DNA of 33,367 nucleotides from a virus. The stretch spans positions 1-33,367 of the IMG/VR virus record IMGVR_UViG_3300029448_000191; one strand, 5' to 3'. The notes under the pieces are model-generated. The model was not told the DNA's origin, made no database searches, and was given only the letters and a program-made list of their open reading frames with translations. Both the position numbers and the translations under genes were made by a program. Of the stretch, positions 1 through 33,367 are shown piece by piece (within the stretch, counting starts at the first letter, position 1; each line of letters begins with the position of its first letter).

Positions 1-3
1 AAA

Positions 4-168
4 ATGATAGACAATGTGAAAATAATAAATTACTTACAAGATAGAATCCAAGCTTACAAATCAGGTGGTTCTAAAATTACAGCTAAAGACCATGAATCAG
101 ATATCAACACTCTGAATTGGTACAAAAAACATTTAGGTAAAATGGATTCTGAGCAGAGGGTTGCTTAG
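4..168 (+). CDS. Small hypothetical protein, 54 aa (left copy)
   Basis: An intact 54-codon frame starts with MIDNV and ends QRVA-stop. It is not a family I recognise. The protein is hydrophilic and mostly helical-looking, with a conserved second half (KSGGSKIT, then NTLNWYKKHLGKMDSEQR). A diverged second copy lies at 33126-33290. The two proteins differ mainly in the first half, while the last 20 residues are identical, so the C-terminal part is probably the constrained part. The ribosome-binding site lies outside the window for this copy; the right copy has GGAG just before its ATG. It is the first gene of the run leading into the DUF3310 gene. Confidence 0.75.
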   Translation: MIDNVKIINYLQDRIQAYKSGGSKITAKDHESDINTLNWYKKHLGKMDSEQRVA

Positions 169-188
169 AATAAACACGAGATGTTAAT

Positions 189-216
189 ACAGATGGGTTG
201 TGACATTCCCATCTGT
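189..216 (+). promoter_or_regulatory. Intercistronic hairpin before the DUF3310 gene
   Basis: ACAGATGGG (189-197) pairs perfectly with CCCATCTGT (208-216) around a 10-base loop. No T-run follows, so it does not look like a terminator. It lies between the stop at 168 and the AGGA ribosome-binding site of the next gene. It is one of several G3/C3 hairpins placed this way in the genome and is repeated intact at 33311-33338. Confidence 0.6.
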
Positions 217-231
217 TAAGCAGGAACTAGA

Positions 232-432
232 ATGACAGACAACATAAATCCAAAGCATTACAAACAAGGTAAGATTGAAGTAATCGATTTTATCTTAGAC
301 CAAAAAATGGGTTATCTTGAATCCAATATATTGAAATACATTTGTAGATACAAACTTAAAAATGGTTTGGAAGATTTAAAGAAAGCACAATGGTACTTAA
401 ATAAATTAATCGAGCAACAAGATGAAACATAA
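232..432 (+). CDS. DUF3310-family protein (nucleotide-kinase-related phage protein)
   Basis: This 66-aa protein has the short DUF3310 pattern: NPKHYKQGKIEVIDFI at residues 6-21, then ILKYICRYKLKNG and DLKKAQWYLNKLI. The family is widespread in phages and is often labelled nucleotide kinase by analogy with T7 gp1.7. The protein here is essentially only the conserved core, so catalytic activity cannot be assumed. An AGGA ribosome-binding site precedes the ATG. The reading frame overlaps the next gene by 11 bases, indicating translational coupling. Its first 14 bases reappear at the right end of the window. Confidence 0.85.
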   Translation: MTDNINPKHYKQGKIEVIDFILDQKMGYLESNILKYICRYKLKNGLEDLKKAQWYLNKLIEQQDET

Positions 433-10699: not shown

Positions 10700-13648
10700 T
10701 TATGCTGATTCTACATAACCATAACCTTTTGCTATATAGGAAAAATCTTTCGATACACCTGAACCTGTACCACTTCCTTGATAGAAGTTGATTGTAAAAC
10801 CTGTAGCTGATTTGCTACTTATCACATAATGTTGATTTTGGTCTAAGTCATCTACTTCTATACCGAGACCTTGTAATGATTTAAAAGCAGGCGAGAATGT
10901 GACTACTTTAGCTCCTGTACCTGATGTAATACTATCTTCTGCGATGGTTCTATCAGGCATATCGACTGTTGCTGACAATTCGTAAATAGCAGGTGTCGCA
11001 GTCTGATTTGAACTTGTTAAATTAACTCTTAGCTTAATATATCTAGCTTTATAATCACCTAATATATAACTTCGATAATCTGTATAAGTAGAATTATCAT
11101 CAGATGTAGATATCAATAACTGTACATTTACATCATTAAACTCATCGTAAGAACCATCAAATAATCCACCTCTGTCATCAAAATTTCCTAAGAAACTGTC
11201 AAACAACGATGTCTCATCGAATCTATTGTATTTACAAGTAAAGGTTACACGACTGTTATATATAGCACCTAAATCTATTGTTGGAAAATCATAAAAACCA
11301 TCTGTGTTATAAGCTGTTGTTCCACCATCATCGAAGTTACCTGTTTGGTCATCAAAGTTTCCTGTAGCACTGTCAAACAACTCGCCAAGTTTTATTTGTA
11401 GAAAATTTGTACCATCTCTTGTTACAACCTGTGTTTCAGTTTTTGTTCCTGCAAAACCTGTGCTTTCTGTTTGTGTAGCTACTACATTAAAATCTCTTGT
11501 TATTGAATTAAGTATAATAATTGTTTTTGCTGATGTCAGACTTTCTAAACCAAGAACATCTACAGCTTTTATCATGTAAGTTCCTGTCTGTGCAGGAAGT
11601 ACGACTGTGTTTGCAGGTTTGGATACTTTTTGTGCAACTATCAATCCCTCAGAAAATTTCTGATTAGATGTCAGAGGTGTATGTCTTACAACATAATGCG
11701 ATAAATCTAAATCACTTACAGGTGTCCATGACAAAGCAACGACATCCCCAACTATATTGCTCGAAAAATTAGTTACATCAGAAGGTGATGCTGTCTTACC
11801 AATAACCTCATGAGTAGTAGTGGTAAATGAGCTGTGAACATTAAAAGCATTTATTGACCTTGCACGAACATTATATATTGCTCCATCTTCTGCATTGACT
11901 AACTCGAATATATTACCTTTACTTCTCCCTAAAGTTATAAACTCACTTCCTGCTTCGTTGGTGTTTTGTGCTTCTACTTCAAATTCATTTGTCGTTCCCT
12001 GATTACTAGAACACACCACCTTCATAACTGTAATTGGTGTCTCTGCATAAATTCTTAATTCATCAGTTACAACAATAGCAGGTGGTGATACATCTTCTGC
12101 ACTTGGTAAAGTTGTATTATCTAATACAAATTCAGATTCTTCAGCGTTCCAATCATAAACTGATGATGATGTTTCTTTTAAAATAACATCAATACCTAAC
12201 ACCTCTGTATTCATGACCCATTCAGCTACTTCAAACTGTTTATTAGAAAATCCAAATCTTGCATTAGTAATATTTACAGTATCTCCTACTTGCAGTTTGA
12301 ATGCTTTCATATTCAATGTGGTAGTTAATACCATCTGTTGTCTGTTCTTAAATAAAGAAACTTTTGCAATCCTTTGTGCTGTTGCACTAGATGAAGTAAA
12401 TGGTAAGTCTACATCTGATGTAATTGTCTCACCATCTTCTGTAACAAATGTTGAGCTTGTTACAGCAGGATAATCGGTTGGTTGGAAATTAGTTTCTGCA
12501 CCTGTGAAGATGCCTTTTACTGTATTGTGTAATGACTTTCTTGATTGTTTTGAGTTTATATTTATACCTGATATAAAATCATCTTCATCAAAAGATGCCA
12601 CAGGAGATACATACTGACCACCTTTAAGAATAAACTTGCCATTAGAATATGAAAGCACACCTAAACATGATGTAAGCATATCTTCTAATATTTGCATTGG
12701 TGCTATATCGGAATAAACAATACCATTACATGTATATCTTTTTTCAGTTCCACCACCTACTTTAGTGACATTCTCATCACAAAGATTAGCCATTGTAGTG
12801 AATGATGCTGTATCAATATTATCTCTGCTTATTCCTAAACCTAATCTTGTATCTGTTAAATAATCATAAATACATAAAGCAGGGTTACTTGAAAATGCTG
12901 TAGAATTATCTCTAAAATCAAAAAGTTTTTTACCTTTTATTTCAGCACTTATGTTAGGTATTCCATTAGGGAACATATCAGCATCATAATCCATTTGTAT
13001 ATAAAGATATGCAATTCCTCTTAGTCTATGTTCTGTTGTCCACTTGCTTACTTGGTCTATTAAATCATGGTCAGCTAACTGTGTATCAGCTCCTAAATGT
13101 TCCTTTATTTCTACTGCTTGTCTTGTATAAATAATATCTAGAGGCAATCCTTCAAAGTCAGATTGTTTATCATATTTATCAGGAGAAGTTGGTCTTTGTC
13201 TTGCTAACCCATCTGAATCGTTATTTATAGTAGTTAATGTTAATGGCTCATCATTAAAATATATTGTATCAAATGACTGTATTTCATGAGATGCCACTTG
13301 TACAATAATGTGCAATCTTTTATTGTTATCTGTTGTTTCCATAAACAAGATACCACCTGACTTTTTAGTAGAGCCATAAACTGTCTCTCTTGATATGATA
13401 GGTTGTCTTATCATCAAACTTCTATTAGCAGTTTGTGATGAATAAGATTGTTGTTGCAGAGATGAATTTCTCGACCTAGTAGGTGGTGCTAAAGCATTGG
13501 CTATTACTCCTGCTCCGACTGTTAAGGCAACTCGTGTAGCTATGGTTGCCATTGTTCCAAATTTATATGCAGTTGCTATTACACCTGCAAAATGTCCTGC
13601 TGTAACCATTACAGCTACTCTTACGATATCTCCTACTGAACCACCCAT
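10700..13648 (-). CDS. Tail tip attachment / central fibre protein (gpJ-like)
   Basis: This is a 982-aa protein. The N-terminus is an alanine/valine-rich hydrophobic stretch (residues 5-50) that may insert into a membrane or pack in the tip. SRETVYGSTKKSGGILF (around residue 89), then IVQVASHEIQSFDTIYFNDE and beta-rich hub domains match the gpJ/phage tip family. One fibronectin III-like domain lies near 630-705 (VVALSWTPVSDLDLSHYVV). Near 760-830 come acidic repeats with GNFDD motifs, including GNFDDQTGNFDDGG and GNFDDRGGLFDG. The protein is likely the receptor-contact hub. Its start shares a base with the acyltransferase-like gene's stop (TAATG), so the two are translationally coupled. Confidence 0.85.
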   Translation of the reverse strand: MGGSVGDIVRVAVMVTAGHFAGVIATAYKFGTMATIATRVALTVGAGVIANALAPPTRSRNSSLQQQSYSSQTANRSLMIRQPIISRETVYGSTKKSGGILFMETTDNNKRLHIIVQVASHEIQSFDTIYFNDEPLTLTTINNDSDGLARQRPTSPDKYDKQSDFEGLPLDIIYTRQAVEIKEHLGADTQLADHDLIDQVSKWTTEHRLRGIAYLYIQMDYDADMFPNGIPNISAEIKGKKLFDFRDNSTAFSSNPALCIYDYLTDTRLGLGISRDNIDTASFTTMANLCDENVTKVGGGTEKRYTCNGIVYSDIAPMQILEDMLTSCLGVLSYSNGKFILKGGQYVSPVASFDEDDFISGININSKQSRKSLHNTVKGIFTGAETNFQPTDYPAVTSSTFVTEDGETITSDVDLPFTSSSATAQRIAKVSLFKNRQQMVLTTTLNMKAFKLQVGDTVNITNARFGFSNKQFEVAEWVMNTEVLGIDVILKETSSSVYDWNAEESEFVLDNTTLPSAEDVSPPAIVVTDELRIYAETPITVMKVVCSSNQGTTNEFEVEAQNTNEAGSEFITLGRSKGNIFELVNAEDGAIYNVRARSINAFNVHSSFTTTTHEVIGKTASPSDVTNFSSNIVGDVVALSWTPVSDLDLSHYVVRHTPLTSNQKFSEGLIVAQKVSKPANTVVLPAQTGTYMIKAVDVLGLESLTSAKTIIILNSITRDFNVVATQTESTGFAGTKTETQVVTRDGTNFLQIKLGELFDSATGNFDDQTGNFDDGGTTAYNTDGFYDFPTIDLGAIYNSRVTFTCKYNRFDETSLFDSFLGNFDDRGGLFDGSYDEFNDVNVQLLISTSDDNSTYTDYRSYILGDYKARYIKLRVNLTSSNQTATPAIYELSATVDMPDRTIAEDSITSGTGAKVVTFSPAFKSLQGLGIEVDDLDQNQHYVISSKSATGFTINFYQGSGTGSGVSKDFSYIAKGYGYVESA

Positions 13649-15166: not shown

Positions 15167-15598
15167 TTAAGCATCCTCAGAATCCTGTGGATTACCTAAG
15201 ATACCTTGAATACTAATAGGTGTACCATTTGAATGAGTACCTGTAGCATCAATTTTAACTCTCACATACCTTTTGCCACCTATGTATCCTATTTGGCTAG
15301 TTTGTGGAGTTTCACCATTAGCATCTAGTGTTAAGAAAATACCTGAAGAATCTACACTTCCTTCTGTCACACTTGTTGAAGATGTAACAGCAGAGAATGT
15401 TGAATCATCATCAGATTCTTGAAGAATGAAATCAAACTTCACACTACCTGATAATGTATCTCCTTCTATACCACTATTTACTACGAACATTACACTTTCA
15501 AAACCTTGTGTATCTACTGTTGTGCCATTGGCATCAGCAGTAAAAACTTTAGCATCTTGACAGGTAACAGCTTTTGTTCTATTTGAAATATCTCTCAT
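15167..15598 (-). CDS. Putative head decoration or structural protein
   Basis: This 143-aa, beta-rich protein begins MRDISNRTKAVTCQDAKVF. It includes LQESDDDSTFSAVTSS and SQIGYIGGKRYVRVKIDATG, a compact jelly-roll-like composition with many T, S, G and D. It lies 11 bases after the capsid gene with a GGGAG ribosome-binding site. In many marine siphophages the gene immediately after the capsid is a small decoration or structural protein, and this one has that size and composition. The assignment is positional. Confidence 0.6.
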   Translation of the reverse strand: MRDISNRTKAVTCQDAKVFTADANGTTVDTQGFESVMFVVNSGIEGDTLSGSVKFDFILQESDDDSTFSAVTSSTSVTEGSVDSSGIFLTLDANGETPQTSQIGYIGGKRYVRVKIDATGTHSNGTPISIQGILGNPQDSEDA

Positions 15599-17563: not shown

Positions 17564-17592
17564 TAAAAAAAGAGCAGAACTAAGTCTGCTCT
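17564..17592 (-). terminator. Rho-independent terminator of the small leftward gene
   Basis: AGAGCAGA (17571-17578) pairs with TCTGCTCT (17585-17592) around a 6-base loop. On the minus strand the hairpin is followed by a run of T (A-run 17565-17570). It closes the gene at 17616-17894. Late transcripts from upstream must read through it to reach protease and capsid unless another promoter lies within 17478-17563, where none is obvious. Confidence 0.85.
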
Positions 17593-17615
17593 CATTTTAT
17601 GTATACTTTGATTTA

Positions 17616-17894
17616 TTATAAACCGAGAATTTTTTTTATCGGTCTTTCTTCTAAAGATTCTAAATAATTACCTTTCTGTTGGTGATGCTCTGCTAAGAAT
17701 CTTAATGCTTTAAGCTCCTCATCAGTATATTCATCTGAGTAATCATCAGCTTCTAGTTCATACATTTCAGCAGTATTCCATTGTGCAACAATTTTATCAC
17801 TACTGTTAATATATTTAGCATGATACATGTCCCAATAATTGAGTTTCTTATTGAAAAGTATGTTTTTTGCTTTACTTATTGTCATTGCTTCCAT
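17616..17894 (-). CDS. Small hypothetical protein under a repressor-type promoter, 92 aa
   Basis: This 92-aa protein begins MEAMTISKAKNILFNKK. It is acidic in the centre (YELEADDYSDEYTDEELKAL) and ends ERPIKKILGL. No family is recognised. GGAG six bases before ATG supports this start. It has its own strong promoter with two overlapping operators (17914-17951) and its own terminator (17564-17592). It is therefore an independent transcription unit inside the head operon, an arrangement typical of 'moron' genes that act on the host or phage regulation. Confidence 0.7.
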   Translation of the reverse strand: MEAMTISKAKNILFNKKLNYWDMYHAKYINSSDKIVAQWNTAEMYELEADDYSDEYTDEELKALRFLAEHHQQKGNYLESLEERPIKKILGL

Positions 17895-17913
17895 TTGTTT
17901 CTCCTAGTTAATT

Positions 17914-17951
17914 TATACTTACAGTATACTAAAAGTATATAGTTGTGTAAA
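17914..17951 (-). promoter_or_regulatory. Leftward sigma70-type promoter with two overlapping operators
   Basis: On the minus strand, -35 TTTACA (17951-17946), a 17-base spacer and -10 TATACT (17928-17923) make a near-consensus promoter for the 92-aa gene. Two perfect inverted repeats overlap it: TATACT-TAC-AGTATA (17914-17928) and TATACT-AAA-AGTATA (17925-17939), sharing a half-site. This is the best-conserved site of the repeat family also seen near 27.55, 29.3 and 32.3 kb. Repressor binding would block RNA polymerase. Confidence 0.8.
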
Positions 17952-17956
17952 GCTTT

Positions 17957-25528: not shown

Positions 25529-26722
25529 CTATTTAAGACTATTGTACAACTCTCCTGTTGATTCTAATACAGCATCTTTCCCTGTAAAGTTCTGCCATCT
25601 TTTAATTATGACATCACAGTATTTAGGGTCTAGTTCTAAACCATAACATATTCGGTTGTTTTTATGAGCTGATATCATTGTAGAGCCACTACCTAAAAAA
25701 GGGTCTAGTATAAGTTCTTTCCCTGATTGGTCTTGTATTGCTAAGTCTATTAGTTCTACAGGTTTAGTCGTTGGGTGAAACACATTCTTCTGTCTTTTTA
25801 ATGTCCATACATCTCCTCTAAGAGTTTTATGACCACCAAAATCACCATAATAAAAAATCAGTTCATGCTGTTTGTAATATTTATCTAAGTTCTGTGCAGG
25901 ATTCACTTTATTCCAAACAATCATAGCTTTGGGTTTTCTTCCTAAGTCTGTCATAGCTTGTTTAAAAACATGAGCATACTGCCAAGAGCAACATACATAC
26001 ATAACTTCACAGCTATAAAGTGATTGAAGAAGAAATTCTTTGAAATTATCTTCAGACATGCTGTCGTTTTTTATTTTATCTCTTTTATCTTTTACTCCCT
26101 GATAATCAATATTATAAGGTGGGTCAGTAAAAACCATATCTGGTCTATTCCCTTTCATGACTTCTTCCACATGGTTTATGTTCGTACTATCACCACACAT
26201 TAATCTATGCTCACCTAATATCCATATATCACCTTCTTTGGTTATAGGATTATCTTCTATCTCAGGTACTTCATCTTCATCTGTTAAACCTTCTTCTATC
26301 ATAAAATCAGGTACAATCTTAGCTATCTCATCTGTGCTAAAACCTGTAAGACCTAAATCGAATTCATTATCAATTAGGAATTCAAAGTTAAGCTTTAAGA
26401 AATCTTTTGACCAAGTGCTGTTTTCAGTTAGTTTATTATCAGCAATACAATATGCTTTTTTCTTTTCATCTGACCAACCTTTTGCAACTATACATGGCAC
26501 TTCTTTTATGCCTAGTGATTTACCTGCTAGTAATCTGCCATGACCTGCTATGATTTCGTTGTTCTCATCTATTAAGATTGGCATTGTCCAACCAAACTCT
26601 TTGATTGAATTAGCTACCTGTTCTATCTGTTCAGGTGCATGTTCTCTTGGGTTGGAATCGTAAGGTACGACATCATCTATATTCTTAGTGATTGTGTTTT
26701 GTACTGCCCATTCGTTACTCAT
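25529..26722 (-). CDS. ParB-like N-terminal domain plus DNA methyltransferase (beta class)
   Basis: This 397-aa protein has two domains. Residues 10-140 form a ParB/Srx-type nuclease-like domain (YDSNPREHAPEQIEQVANSI, with GHGRLLAGK at 60-68). Residues 165-385 form a methyltransferase with catalytic DPPYN (200-204) before the AdoMet-binding PFLGSGST (341-348). That order defines the beta class of adenine-N6 or cytosine-N4 enzymes. The ParB-type domain may help DNA recognition. The start MSNEW at 26722 is chosen because a longer frame (MLFFYIYS) would begin in the terminator hairpin upstream. It heads the late operon and could protect phage DNA or alter late gene expression; the target sequence is unknown. 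Confidence 0.9.
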   Translation of the reverse strand: MSNEWAVQNTITKNIDDVVPYDSNPREHAPEQIEQVANSIKEFGWTMPILIDENNEIIAGHGRLLAGKSLGIKEVPCIVAKGWSDEKKKAYCIADNKLTENSTWSKDFLKLNFEFLIDNEFDLGLTGFSTDEIAKIVPDFMIEEGLTDEDEVPEIEDNPITKEGDIWILGEHRLMCGDSTNINHVEEVMKGNRPDMVFTDPPYNIDYQGVKDKRDKIKNDSMSEDNFKEFLLQSLYSCEVMYVCCSWQYAHVFKQAMTDLGRKPKAMIVWNKVNPAQNLDKYYKQHELIFYYGDFGGHKTLRGDVWTLKRQKNVFHPTTKPVELIDLAIQDQSGKELILDPFLGSGSTMISAHKNNRICYGLELDPKYCDVIIKRWQNFTGKDAVLESTGELYNSLK

Positions 26723-26729
26723 GGTGTTA

Positions 26730-26758
26730 TTTATACTATAGATATAAAAAAAGAGCAA
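26730..26758 (-). promoter_or_regulatory. Candidate promoter for the late operon
   Basis: On the minus strand, TTGCTC (26758-26753), a 17-base spacer and TATAAA (26735-26730) form a plausible sigma70 promoter whose -35 lies in the terminator hairpin. Predicted transcription would start 1-2 bases before the methyltransferase ATG (26722), implying leaderless translation. An imperfect copy of the operator, TATACT-ATA-GATATA (26732-26746, two mismatches), overlaps it. The -35 is weak (3 of 6 matches). Confidence 0.45.
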
Positions 26759-27517: not shown

Positions 27518-27535
27518 TAGGGTTTCATTACCCTA
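27518..27535 (-). promoter_or_regulatory. Short hairpin in the 5' leader
   Basis: TAGGGT (27518-27523) pairs with ACCCTA (27530-27535) around a 6-base loop, between the promoter at 27543-27570 and the ribosome-binding site of the 65-aa gene. It has no T-run. It belongs to the same class of G3/C3 leader hairpins seen elsewhere in the genome. Confidence 0.45.
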
Positions 27536-27542
27536 TATAAGT

Positions 27543-27570
27543 ATTATTACATACTTAAAGTATATATCAA
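27543..27570 (-). promoter_or_regulatory. Leftward early promoter with operator in the spacer
   Basis: On the minus strand, -35 TTGATA (27570-27565) and -10 AATAAT (27548-27543) are each one base from consensus, with a 16-base spacer. CATACT-TAA-AGTATA (27550-27564, one mismatch to the operator) fills the spacer. A bound repressor would sit between the two boxes. It drives the small genes at 26804-27496. Confidence 0.75.
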
Positions 27571-28680: not shown

Positions 28681-29061
28681 TTATCCTGCTAAGAAGTTTT
28701 TATTCTTCTTAACCTTATTTAAAATATTGCTTTGCTTTATATTAGTATTGTGGGCAACTGTGTCACTACCGATTGCATTCTCTGTCACTAGTGTCGCATT
28801 GGCACTACCAAGAATATATCTATTACAATTATTCACTCTGCCTTTTATTTTACCAATCTTAATATACCCTCTTATTCGTAAGTCTTTTATATGTCTTTTA
28901 ACACTTCTCTCTGAGCAATGACACAACTCTGCAATGTGTGTGATGCTTGGATAACAAGCATGTTCTTCATCAGCATAATTAGCCAACATAAGCAAAATAA
29001 GTTTGCTAATACTGTTCTTAGTATTTTGTTTGACTGCCCATGCCATTGATTGAAAAGACAT
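28681..29061 (-). CDS. Helix-turn-helix replication initiation-type protein
   Basis: This is a 126-aa protein. SMAWAVKQNTKNSISKLILL near the start and ANYADEEHACYPSITHIAEL followed by CHCSERSVKRHIKDLRIRGY form the winged-helix domain seen at the N-terminus of phage lambda O-like and other replication initiators. The remainder (NRYILGSANATLVTE onward) is short and unstructured. It would bind the origin and load the helicase encoded downstream. The origin itself is not identified. Its ATG shares a base with the repressor stop (TAATG), so it is translated with it. Confidence 0.8.
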   Translation of the reverse strand: MSFQSMAWAVKQNTKNSISKLILLMLANYADEEHACYPSITHIAELCHCSERSVKRHIKDLRIRGYIKIGKIKGRVNNCNRYILGSANATLVTENAIGSDTVAHNTNIKQSNILNKVKKNKNFLAG

Positions 29062-29252
29062 TACTTTATTCCATAAAAATCATTAGCTGTTACTTTCTTC
29101 TCTGTCTGCTTATAAATCTTCATCATGTTCTCTTGTCTTGGTATCTTCTCTCCATAATAATACTTTGACATAGTAGGCAATGGTATCTTGCATTTATCAG
29201 CAAATTTAGATACTGATATCCCTTCCCTCTTAATATAATCATTTAATATCAT
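29061..29252 (-). CDS. Small XRE-type HTH repressor/Cro-like protein
   Basis: This 63-aa protein begins MILNDYIKREGISVSKFADK and contains CKIPLPTMSKYYYGEKIPR, a Cro/C1-type helix-turn-helix (helices at about 14-20 and 25-33), then KIYKQTEKKVTANDF. The size fits a DNA-binding domain alone, without a dimerisation or protease domain. It heads the leftward operon at the divergent control region. It is the strongest candidate for the protein that binds the TATACT-N3-AGTATA sites. No integrase is present, so a lysogeny role is not shown. Confidence 0.8.
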   Translation of the reverse strand: MILNDYIKREGISVSKFADKCKIPLPTMSKYYYGEKIPRQENMMKIYKQTEKKVTANDFYGIK

Positions 29253-29361
29253 TGTTACTCCTGTTGTTTACCCCAATGAGTATATATTACTTTTCGTATA
29301 AAAAAAAGGTTTACATAGATATACTTTAGGTGTAATGTAATCTCATGAATAGGAGAAATGT
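29253..29361. promoter_or_regulatory. Divergent control region with operators and promoters
   Basis: This 109-base gap lies between the leftward XRE gene and the rightward gene at 29362. Rightward promoter: TTTACA (29310-29315), a 15-base spacer and TGTAAT (29331-29336), five of six matches each. An operator-like TATACT-TTA-GGTGTA (29320-29334, two mismatches) overlaps it. A weaker element, ATTACT-TTT-CGTATA, lies at 29286-29300. A leftward -10 could be TATACT at 29284-29279; its -35 is unclear. GGAG of the first rightward gene is at 29351-29354. Confidence 0.65.
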
Positions 29362-30652: not shown

Positions 30653-31438
30653 ATGGATAGAACATTAGGAATAGGTGGTAGTGATGCCAAGCGAATCATT
30701 GAAGGTGATTGGCACACTCTGTGGCTCGAAAAAACTAAAAGAGTAGAGCCTGTAGATTTATCAGATGTATTGCCTGTGCAAATGGGTATTACTACAGAAA
30801 AACTCAATCTTGATTGGCTAGAAAAAGCATTGGTCAATGAAGGATATAAAGATACAGAAATCAAAAGAGATGTCACTTTGGAACAAAAAGACTTTATGAT
30901 GTCTCACTTAGATGGACACATTGTTAAACCCAACATCATTGTAGAAGCTAAACACACTTATGCAATGAACACATTGGAAAATGTAGCTCAATTTTATTAT
31001 TGTCAGTTGCAACATTACATGATGCACTCAGGTGCTAATGAAACTTATTTATCAGTATTTTTTGGTAACAATGAGCATAAGTGGTCATCTATAGAATCTG
31101 ACCCTGAGTTTCATCAAACACTTTACAAAGCTGAGATGGCATTTTGGAAATTCGTTGAAGAAGATAAAGAGCCTACAGAATTTATACAACCGATAGAACA
31201 ACCCAAAGAAATTAAATTAGATGGTATGAGAACTTTAGATATGAAAGATAACAAAGAAATGAATATCTTGATTGATTCGTTAAAAGAAGTTAAACCTTAT
31301 GTAACGATGCAAAAACAAATTGTAAACGATATTAAATCTTTAGTTCCACACGATTGCAGGAAAGCATTCGGTAATGGTATTACATTATCAAGAAGCAAGA
31401 AAGGAACACTAACACTTAGAGAAAATGCTAGTGAGTAG
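30653..31438 (+). CDS. YqaJ-like/lambda Exo-type viral recombinase exonuclease
   Basis: This 261-aa protein has the YqaJ-family start (DRTLGIGGSDAKRI), MSHLDG (Asp87), IIVEAK (Glu98-x-Lys100) and QFYYCQLQHYM (Gln118/Gln120), the catalytic residues of PD-(D/E)XK exonucleases of this type. It degrades one strand of duplex ends so that the ERF protein can anneal the product. The start ATG at 30653 has TTGGAG 8-13 bases upstream; an in-frame TTG at 30641 is part of that ribosome-binding site. It overlaps the next gene by 14 bases. Confidence 0.9.
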   Translation: MDRTLGIGGSDAKRIIEGDWHTLWLEKTKRVEPVDLSDVLPVQMGITTEKLNLDWLEKALVNEGYKDTEIKRDVTLEQKDFMMSHLDGHIVKPNIIVEAKHTYAMNTLENVAQFYYCQLQHYMMHSGANETYLSVFFGNNEHKWSSIESDPEFHQTLYKAEMAFWKFVEEDKEPTEFIQPIEQPKEIKLDGMRTLDMKDNKEMNILIDSLKEVKPYVTMQKQIVNDIKSLVPHDCRKAFGNGITLSRSKKGTLTLRENASE

Positions 31439-32015
31439 TTACTCTCCAATTCCTAATAGATTTTTTAAGGAGAACTGCCAACCTGATTATGATACTAACC
31501 CTATCTATGGTTTAGTTCATAGAGCAGTAGACTTGCAAGTGCATAAAGATTTTTTAAGCGAAATTGCTGTAAAAAAAATACCTGTCAAAGCAAAAGTCAA
31601 TTCAGGTAAAGAGGGTATAAGAGAAGTTGATGCTTGGAGAATACCGATTGAATCAGGTATCGGTAATGTCTTAAATTACATAATTTTAGATTTGAATGAA
31701 ATTTATAATTACAGAATATCCTGTATACAAGACATTCAATATTTAGAATATCAAGTTGGAGATTATTATAATTGGCATACTGATATTTCTGATGGACTAA
31801 GTTCACTAAGAAAGATAAGTATATCATTTGTTTTAAACGATGACTTTGAAGGTGGAGAGTTGGAGTTTTTTCATGGTGGTGAAAAAATAATTATTAATAC
31901 AAAAATAGATTCATTGATTGCCTTTACTAGCTTTATAAATCATCGAGTTAGGAAAGTAACAAAAGGTATTCGTAAAGCATTAGTGGTGTGGGTCAATGGT
32001 GAATCATGGAGATGA
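31425..32015 (+). CDS. 2-oxoglutarate/Fe(II)-dependent oxygenase (P4Hc/PKHD-type)
   Basis: This 196-aa protein has YNWHTDISDG (His118-x-Asp120), LRKISISFVLNDDFEGGELE, FFHGGEK, INHRV (His173) and GIRKALVVWVNG (Arg183), the His-x-Asp...His...Arg set that binds iron and 2-oxoglutarate. Phage members hydroxylate proteins or modify DNA bases; the substrate here is unknown. Position in the recombination/early operon and the overlap with the exonuclease gene suggest early expression. It has no extra domains. Confidence 0.88.
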   Translation: MLVSSYSPIPNRFFKENCQPDYDTNPIYGLVHRAVDLQVHKDFLSEIAVKKIPVKAKVNSGKEGIREVDAWRIPIESGIGNVLNYIILDLNEIYNYRISCIQDIQYLEYQVGDYYNWHTDISDGLSSLRKISISFVLNDDFEGGELEFFHGGEKIIINTKIDSLIAFTSFINHRVRKVTKGIRKALVVWVNGESWR

Positions 32016-32308: not shown

Positions 32309-32339
32309 TATACTCTCAGTATTGTATACTAAAGGTATA
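32309..32339 (+). promoter_or_regulatory. Two operator-like repeats upstream of a small gene
   Basis: TATACT-CTC-AGTATT (32309-32323, one mismatch) and TATACT-AAA-GGTATA (32325-32339, one mismatch) lie 16 bases apart in the 103-base gap before the gene at 32376. A TATACT in this block could serve as the -10 of a rightward promoter, but its -35 partner is poor. A short hairpin, GAAAAAG/CTTTTTC (32271-32289), overlaps the preceding stop. Confidence 0.65.
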
Positions 32340-33101: not shown

Positions 33102-33125
33102 ACTAAATTAATAAGGAGAAATAAC

Positions 33126-33290
33126 ATGATAGACAATGTAGAAATAATTAATCACTTACTAGATAGAATCAAAGATTACAAATCAGGTGGTTCTAAAATT
33201 ACACTACAAGCACATCAATCAGATATCAAAACTCTGAATTGGTACAAAAAACATTTAGGTAAAATGGATTCTGAGCAAAGGGTTGCTTAG
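33126..33290 (+). CDS. Small hypothetical protein, 54 aa (right copy)
   Basis: This is the same length and frame as 4-168, beginning MIDNVEIINHLLDRIKDYKS. It differs mainly in the first 35 residues: E for K at 6, H for Y at 10, L for Q at 12, KD for QA at 16-17, LQA for AKD at 27-29, and Q for E at 31. The final 19 residues are identical. GGAG 7-10 bases upstream and the hairpin at 33067 give this copy normal expression signals. The function is unknown. Confidence 0.75.
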   Translation: MIDNVEIINHLLDRIKDYKSGGSKITLQAHQSDIKTLNWYKKHLGKMDSEQRVA

Positions 33291-33353
33291 AATAAACACG
33301 AGATGTTAATACAGATGGGTTGTGACATTCCCATCTGTTAGGCAGGAACTAGA

Positions 33354-33367
33354 ATGACAGACAACAT
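33354..33367 (+). CDS. Start of a second DUF3310 gene copy (cut by the window end)
   Basis: The first four codons and two bases (MTDN) are identical to 232-245. The gene runs off the end. On a circular or tandem molecule this is either the same gene as 232-432 or a second copy. Confidence 0.7.

Follow-up and report, generated by a model that had tools for sequence, protein, structure and literature searches.

Several phages are known to scatter copies of a single operator around their genomes. Phage P1 carries 22 widely dispersed operators for one repressor, C1, each an asymmetric 17-mer (PMC8546580). In the Bacillus prophage SPbeta, dispersed 15-base-pair (bp) operators called SPBRE sit at promoters of genes of mostly unknown function, and their reader, MrpR, proved not to be the expected kind of protein, having a tyrosine-recombinase fold (PMC10516654). 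The immunity repressor of L5-type mycobacteriophages has many dispersed sites, the stoperators, which are asymmetric 13-bp sequences that halt elongation, number up to about 30 in a genome and mostly face one way relative to transcription (PMC6550527, PMC9283540). Closer in sequence are the C-boxes of restriction-modification controllers, inverted repeats with a GACT/AGTC core that are served by small single-domain XRE proteins (PMC5282649). In this article, I discuss a 15-bp palindrome, TATACT-N3-AGTATA, that recurs at promoters of an uncultured marine phage, IMG/VR record IMGVR_UViG_3300029448_000191, which was analysed as one stretch of 33,367 bp with 34% guanine plus cytosine (the window). 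Its sites are supported as a dispersed family of putative operators covering at least five promoters, and most of them stand in fixed promoter-operator-leader sockets with an exchanged downstream gene, a point absent from an earlier sequence-only reading of this DNA.

The comparison with these systems is instructive. As for P1, a single repressor is proposed here, but the sites are near-perfect palindromes overlapping promoter boxes; unlike stoperators, they are few, symmetric, intergenic and placed at promoters. SPbeta is an integrating prophage, whereas no tyrosine integrase was found here, the candidate reader is a 63-amino-acid (aa) XRE protein, and cargo is exchanged behind fixed operators. 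The ACT-N3-AGT core comes close to a C-box, yet the half-site is TATACT, there are no adjoining restriction genes, and beside the ParB-methyltransferase gene no restriction nuclease could be recognised. Small accessory genes are also exchanged at fixed genome places in the antiviral-gene hotspots of P2 and P4 (PMC9122126) and as prophage morons (PMC7067206); here, by contrast, each socket bears the phage-wide operator. A literature search for AGTATA together with operator, palindrome and phage found no report. As far as I have checked, then, dispersed operators are known already from P1 C1, SPBRE and the stoperators, and what is new is the operator-guarded cargo socket.

A dispersed family of putative operators

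Five sites in the window match the palindrome with at most one mismatch, and all five touch intergenic DNA, which amounts to 1,506 bp or 4.5% of the sequence; shuffling the whole window yields a mean of 0.21 such sites (maximum 2), and shuffling its intergenic DNA 0.07. The sites at 17914 and 17925 are perfect, those at 27550, 32309 and 32325 have one mismatch, 26732 and 29320 have two, and 29286 has three. Two-mismatch sites by themselves are at chance level (six seen, four of them coding), but a scoring matrix with 46 sites of other genomes, none in the window, as its training set rescues 26732 and 29320 with a score of 13.2 against 7.6 for the best coding match. The same matrix ranks 17925, 17914, 32325, 27550, 26732, 29320 and 32309 as the top seven, all intergenic, with a drop from 12.3 to 7.6 bits ahead of the first coding match. 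The sequence-only reading had listed eight intergenic sites, whose coordinates and sequences are correct on direct check; seven of them hold, and the motif is not as frequent inside genes. The eighth, 29286, is not supported as an operator in the window, where it scores 4.1 and ranks 12th, within the background, although the equivalent position scores 9.0 in relatives L008, L013 and L014.

The relatives comprise about 100 contigs collected by scans with the XRE protein and the terminase. Two groups carry the motif at the same promoters: clade I, with terminases 88-97% identical, and clade II, with terminases 75-80% identical, which form separate groups in the terminase tree (support 99/99 and 93/88, respectively), the tree leaving their mutual relation open. 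When 60 half-sites of equal composition were compared across six records of these clades (175 kb), the TATACT motif gave 27 sites and the runner-up 7; among spacer lengths from 0 to 10, length 3 alone stands out; and when five clade I and II genomes were searched de novo, the motif came out with the highest-ranked intergenic palindromes in four of them, the reversed control giving zero. These composition-matched palindromes and other spacer lengths, together with the shuffles and reversed controls, rule out a chance or low-complexity origin. The expectation that relatives with a similar XRE protein would bear the motif at the same promoters was borne out, a few short or diverged contigs having weaker two-mismatch sites only. 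Clade I sites occupy three syntenic slots, of which A lies between g17957 and the prohead protease, B follows the helicase and C follows g32006, and in orthologous slots the half-sites are kept while the central triplet drifts. Nine records of clades III-VI with related terminases (244 kb) contain zero motif sites, and a de novo palindrome search in those clades found no dispersed regulon; contigs L107 and L108 have one one-mismatch site each. A match inside a gene at G007:13952 (L042) looks like chance.

Fixed sockets and exchanged genes

What lies behind the operators varies far more than the operators themselves. The slot B leader precedes 13 distinct proteins of 11 unrelated families, the slot C leader eight proteins of six families and the slot A leader four of four. 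Operator and leader are 97% (L040) and 90% (L045) identical to those of the window, compared with 75% for the neighbouring helicase gene, and in two closer relatives the two identities are alike. Cargo also moves between sockets: an identical 100-aa protein occupies slot B in L007 and slot C in L043, the 92-aa cargo of slot A has a 71%-identical relative behind the operator in slot B of L027, and four further cross-socket pairs are 56-83% identical. The slot A cassette has its own promoter and terminator, as a moron does, and lies between genes that adjoin in relative G007/L042, from which it is missing as a unit, the flanks otherwise matching. Near-invariant leaders, unrelated cargo, cross-socket copies and the absent cassette together argue that the operator stays while the gene is exchanged, and since most operators precede such gene-swap slots, one regulator probably controls a changing gene set. 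I lean, by a slight balance of probability, towards standardised repressor-controlled sockets of conserved promoter-operator-leader DNA, within and between which small orphan genes are swapped by recombination and regulated from the start. Searches with Pfam, PHROGs and PADLOC left nearly all cargo as orphans, with one weak metalloprotease match. The leader hairpin AGGGTAATGAAACCCT may be a regulatory RNA or a recombination point; a hairpin of this kind is also found at L013:561, and at L062:6971 it reads AAGGTAATAAAACCTT, with both partners of one pair altered.

Which protein reads the operator

The best candidate repressor is the 63-aa XRE protein, a choice that I regard as probable, though well short of firm. 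It matches a PHROGs transcription-regulation family at 4e-6; its Pfam matches fall below the curated cut-off in the window, with HTH_3 above the cut-off in relatives; and its structural model (predicted local distance difference test, pLDDT, 83) is a five-helix lambda-repressor-like domain for which Foldseek returns SinR, DdrO and C.BclI as closest, with probability near 1 and E-values above 0.03. It is thus a lambda-repressor-like helix-turn-helix protein by both sequence and fold, and no second HTH_3 protein was found in the window, G014 or G036. In clade III, the xre promoters of L085, L087 and L089 have a different 15-bp palindrome, TATCTTTTATAGATA, with TATTCNAAAAGAATA also in L087 and L089, likely a second operator type, and these different palindromes suggest that members of this XRE family recognise 15-bp sites whose sequence varies.

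The alternative that survives best, which I consider possible but clearly the less probable, is that a different regulator, host-encoded or an unrecognised phage gene, reads these operators and that XRE has its operator elsewhere. Several observations count against XRE. Clades I and II share one operator with strongly different recognition helices (PLPTMSKYYYG and PEVTVNSWKYG), the helix of clade II is like the one in clade V, a clade that lacks the motif, and clades I and II do not come together in the XRE tree. In the window itself, the site at the leftward xre promoter (29286) does not rise above background, and unrelated phages bear the same palindrome, with no XRE detected by a search of those that have the double site. 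The shared operator and the unrelated phages also speak for the alternative. SPbeta supplies a precedent, in that the recombinase-fold protein binding its 15-bp SPBRE was found 24 years after the motif (PMC10516654). On the other side, a search for further regulator-like genes present in both clade I and clade II but not in the other clades found none, relatives with a similar XRE bear the motif at equivalent promoters, and most relatives of both clades have weaker copies of the motif in the xre/recombination promoter region. One operator read against different XRE recognition helices is a clear test case for which protein reads it.

Three further observations concern other phages. Overlapping arrays of the same palindrome occur in unrelated phages, in L048 (G030) at 11457-11535 and 15245-15337 and in L037, upstream of an integrase (one record) and of another gene block. 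A 59-kb phage (L050-L052, G027) has about ten TATACTANTAGTATA-like sites clustered at several places. In another phage group, head-to-tail 11-bp repeats of TATACTNNNAG adjoin a large terminase-like gene (L032 11366-11413, L035 2823-2870, L038 4182-4218).

Promoter geometry and proposed mechanism

The palindrome takes up two registers against sigma-70-like boxes, either filling the spacer between -35 and -10 or covering the -10, and the promoter positions proposed earlier are correct in both respects (operator as spacer at 27550, -10 inside the operators at 17914/17925). Clade II slot A shares the spacer-filling design of 27550, for example TTTACT-TTATACTTAAAGTATA-TATAAT, and the clade II divergent promoter contains AATACTNNNAGTATT-like sites; the rightward recombination promoter reads TTTACA-N17-TAATGT, with a weak -10. 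On sequence grounds this is the geometry of an operator rather than of a mere -10 box, and steric repression fits it. Some C-type XRE proteins act as activators in addition to being repressors (PMC5282649), yet the sites cover spacer and -10, none lies upstream of a -35 and the promoters are near consensus, which makes an activator improbable. Least probable of all is a regulator-free promoter feature made of back-to-back TATACT -10 boxes, for although TATACT is the -10 at 17923-17928 and probably at 32325-32330, the two registers exclude mere -10 symmetry, slot B and clade II slot A keep both half-sites with the -10 (AATAAT, TATAAT) outside a spacer-filling palindrome, and the motif is missing from the 244 kb of related genomes.

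Probably, if with reserve, the sites serve a single dimeric helix-turn-helix repressor as its operators, the 63-aa XRE protein of the phage being the likeliest one. A dimer on the spacer or the -10 would exclude RNA polymerase; the strong sites would keep the promoters of the cargo closed, or close them early in infection, and the weaker ones would adjust expression from the methyltransferase and recombination promoters. Cargo newly brought in by recombination would come under the same control at once because the operator belongs to the socket, not the gene. The proposal of a single repressor over at least four transcription units accordingly extends, on the side of the sites, to at least five promoters (17914/25, 27550, 26732, 29320 and 32309/25), its reader remaining a candidate. 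Mention of an immunity region presumed a temperate phage. A Phage_integrase search of G000 and ten related records, some of them fragments, found no tyrosine integrase (the positive control G030 matched; serine integrases and plasmid lysogeny lie outside this test), which leaves lysogenic immunity and a Cro-like shut-off of early promoters during lytic growth equally plausible.

The genome and its features

The ends of the window (1-245 and 33122-33367) match at 93.5% identity over a 246-bp overlap. The contig therefore probably wraps around and, at about 33.1 kb, represents a complete or almost complete genome. A 54-aa gene has two allele-like copies in these overlapping ends and a single copy in relatives, which points to a probably circular or permuted genome with strain variation. 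Terminase, portal, Mu F-like, capsid and tail genes lie on the minus strand, alongside a replication block that includes XRE; an Erf-like annealing protein and a YqaJ nuclease are encoded in a recombination operon that runs rightward. Within that operon, a 2OG-type oxygenase gene (31425-32015; PADLOC 2OG, E 3e-17) is kept in many relatives. No close cultured relative turned up in the phage collection, a prophage search of bacterial genomes gave nothing beyond one 38%-identical terminase, and a search for transfer RNAs, made for host identification, found none. A one-mismatch site at L021:6122 follows a hairpin very similar to the one at 26732.

Table 1. Sites, promoters and genes of the putative operator system, in window coordinates.
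Feature	Position	Strand	Remarks
Slot A intrinsic terminator	17570..17593	-	
Whole slot A cassette, 383 bp	17574..17956	-	Promoter, operators, gene, terminator stem; bounds read from sequences
Slot A orphan cargo gene, 92 aa	17616..17894	-	No Pfam or PADLOC match, no PHROGs match below 0.01
Operator A2	17914..17928	.	TATACTTACAGTATA, perfect palindrome; one half covers -10 of minus-strand promoter
Slot A cassette promoter	17923..17951	-	TTTACA-N17-TATACT, -10 within operators
Operator A1	17925..17939	.	TATACTAAAAGTATA, perfect palindrome; 4-bp overlap with A2, hence shared half-sites; centres 11 bp apart; double site also in L036
ParB/DNA methyltransferase gene	25529..26722	-	Downstream of 26732 operator
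Weaker operator	26732..26746	.	TATACTATAGATATA, directly after terminator-like hairpin, 10 bp ahead of ParB-methyltransferase start
Slot B unit, second orphan gene, 155 aa	26804..27271	-	
Slot B orphan cargo gene, 67 aa	27299..27502	-	
Slot B leader hairpin	27519..27534	-	AGGGTAATGAAACCCT, kept ahead of 11 unrelated cargo families
Slot B promoter	27543..27570	-	TTGATA-N16-AATAAT, operator as spacer
Operator B	27550..27564	.	CATACTTAAAGTATA, occupies whole -35/-10 spacer
63-aa single-domain XRE/Cro-type helix-turn-helix protein	29061..29252	-	Candidate binder
Site from sequence-only reading	29286..29300	.	Background level in window; better match in some relatives
Weaker operator	29320..29334	.	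TATACTTTAGGTGTA, spacer of rightward recombination-operon promoter; position kept in sampled close relatives
Operator C1	32309..32323	.	TATACTCTCAGTATT, promoter spacer
Operator C2	32325..32339	.	TATACTAAAGGTATA, left half the likely -10
Slot C orphan cargo gene, 120 aa	32376..32738	+	99%-identical relative in L025

Significance

The operator provides a sequence signature that marks cargo genes in this group of uncultured marine phages, and with its help orphan genes that are likely to target the host can be retrieved. The arrangement also raises the idea that phages may take up foreign genes without losing control over them, regulation residing in the socket and not in the gene.
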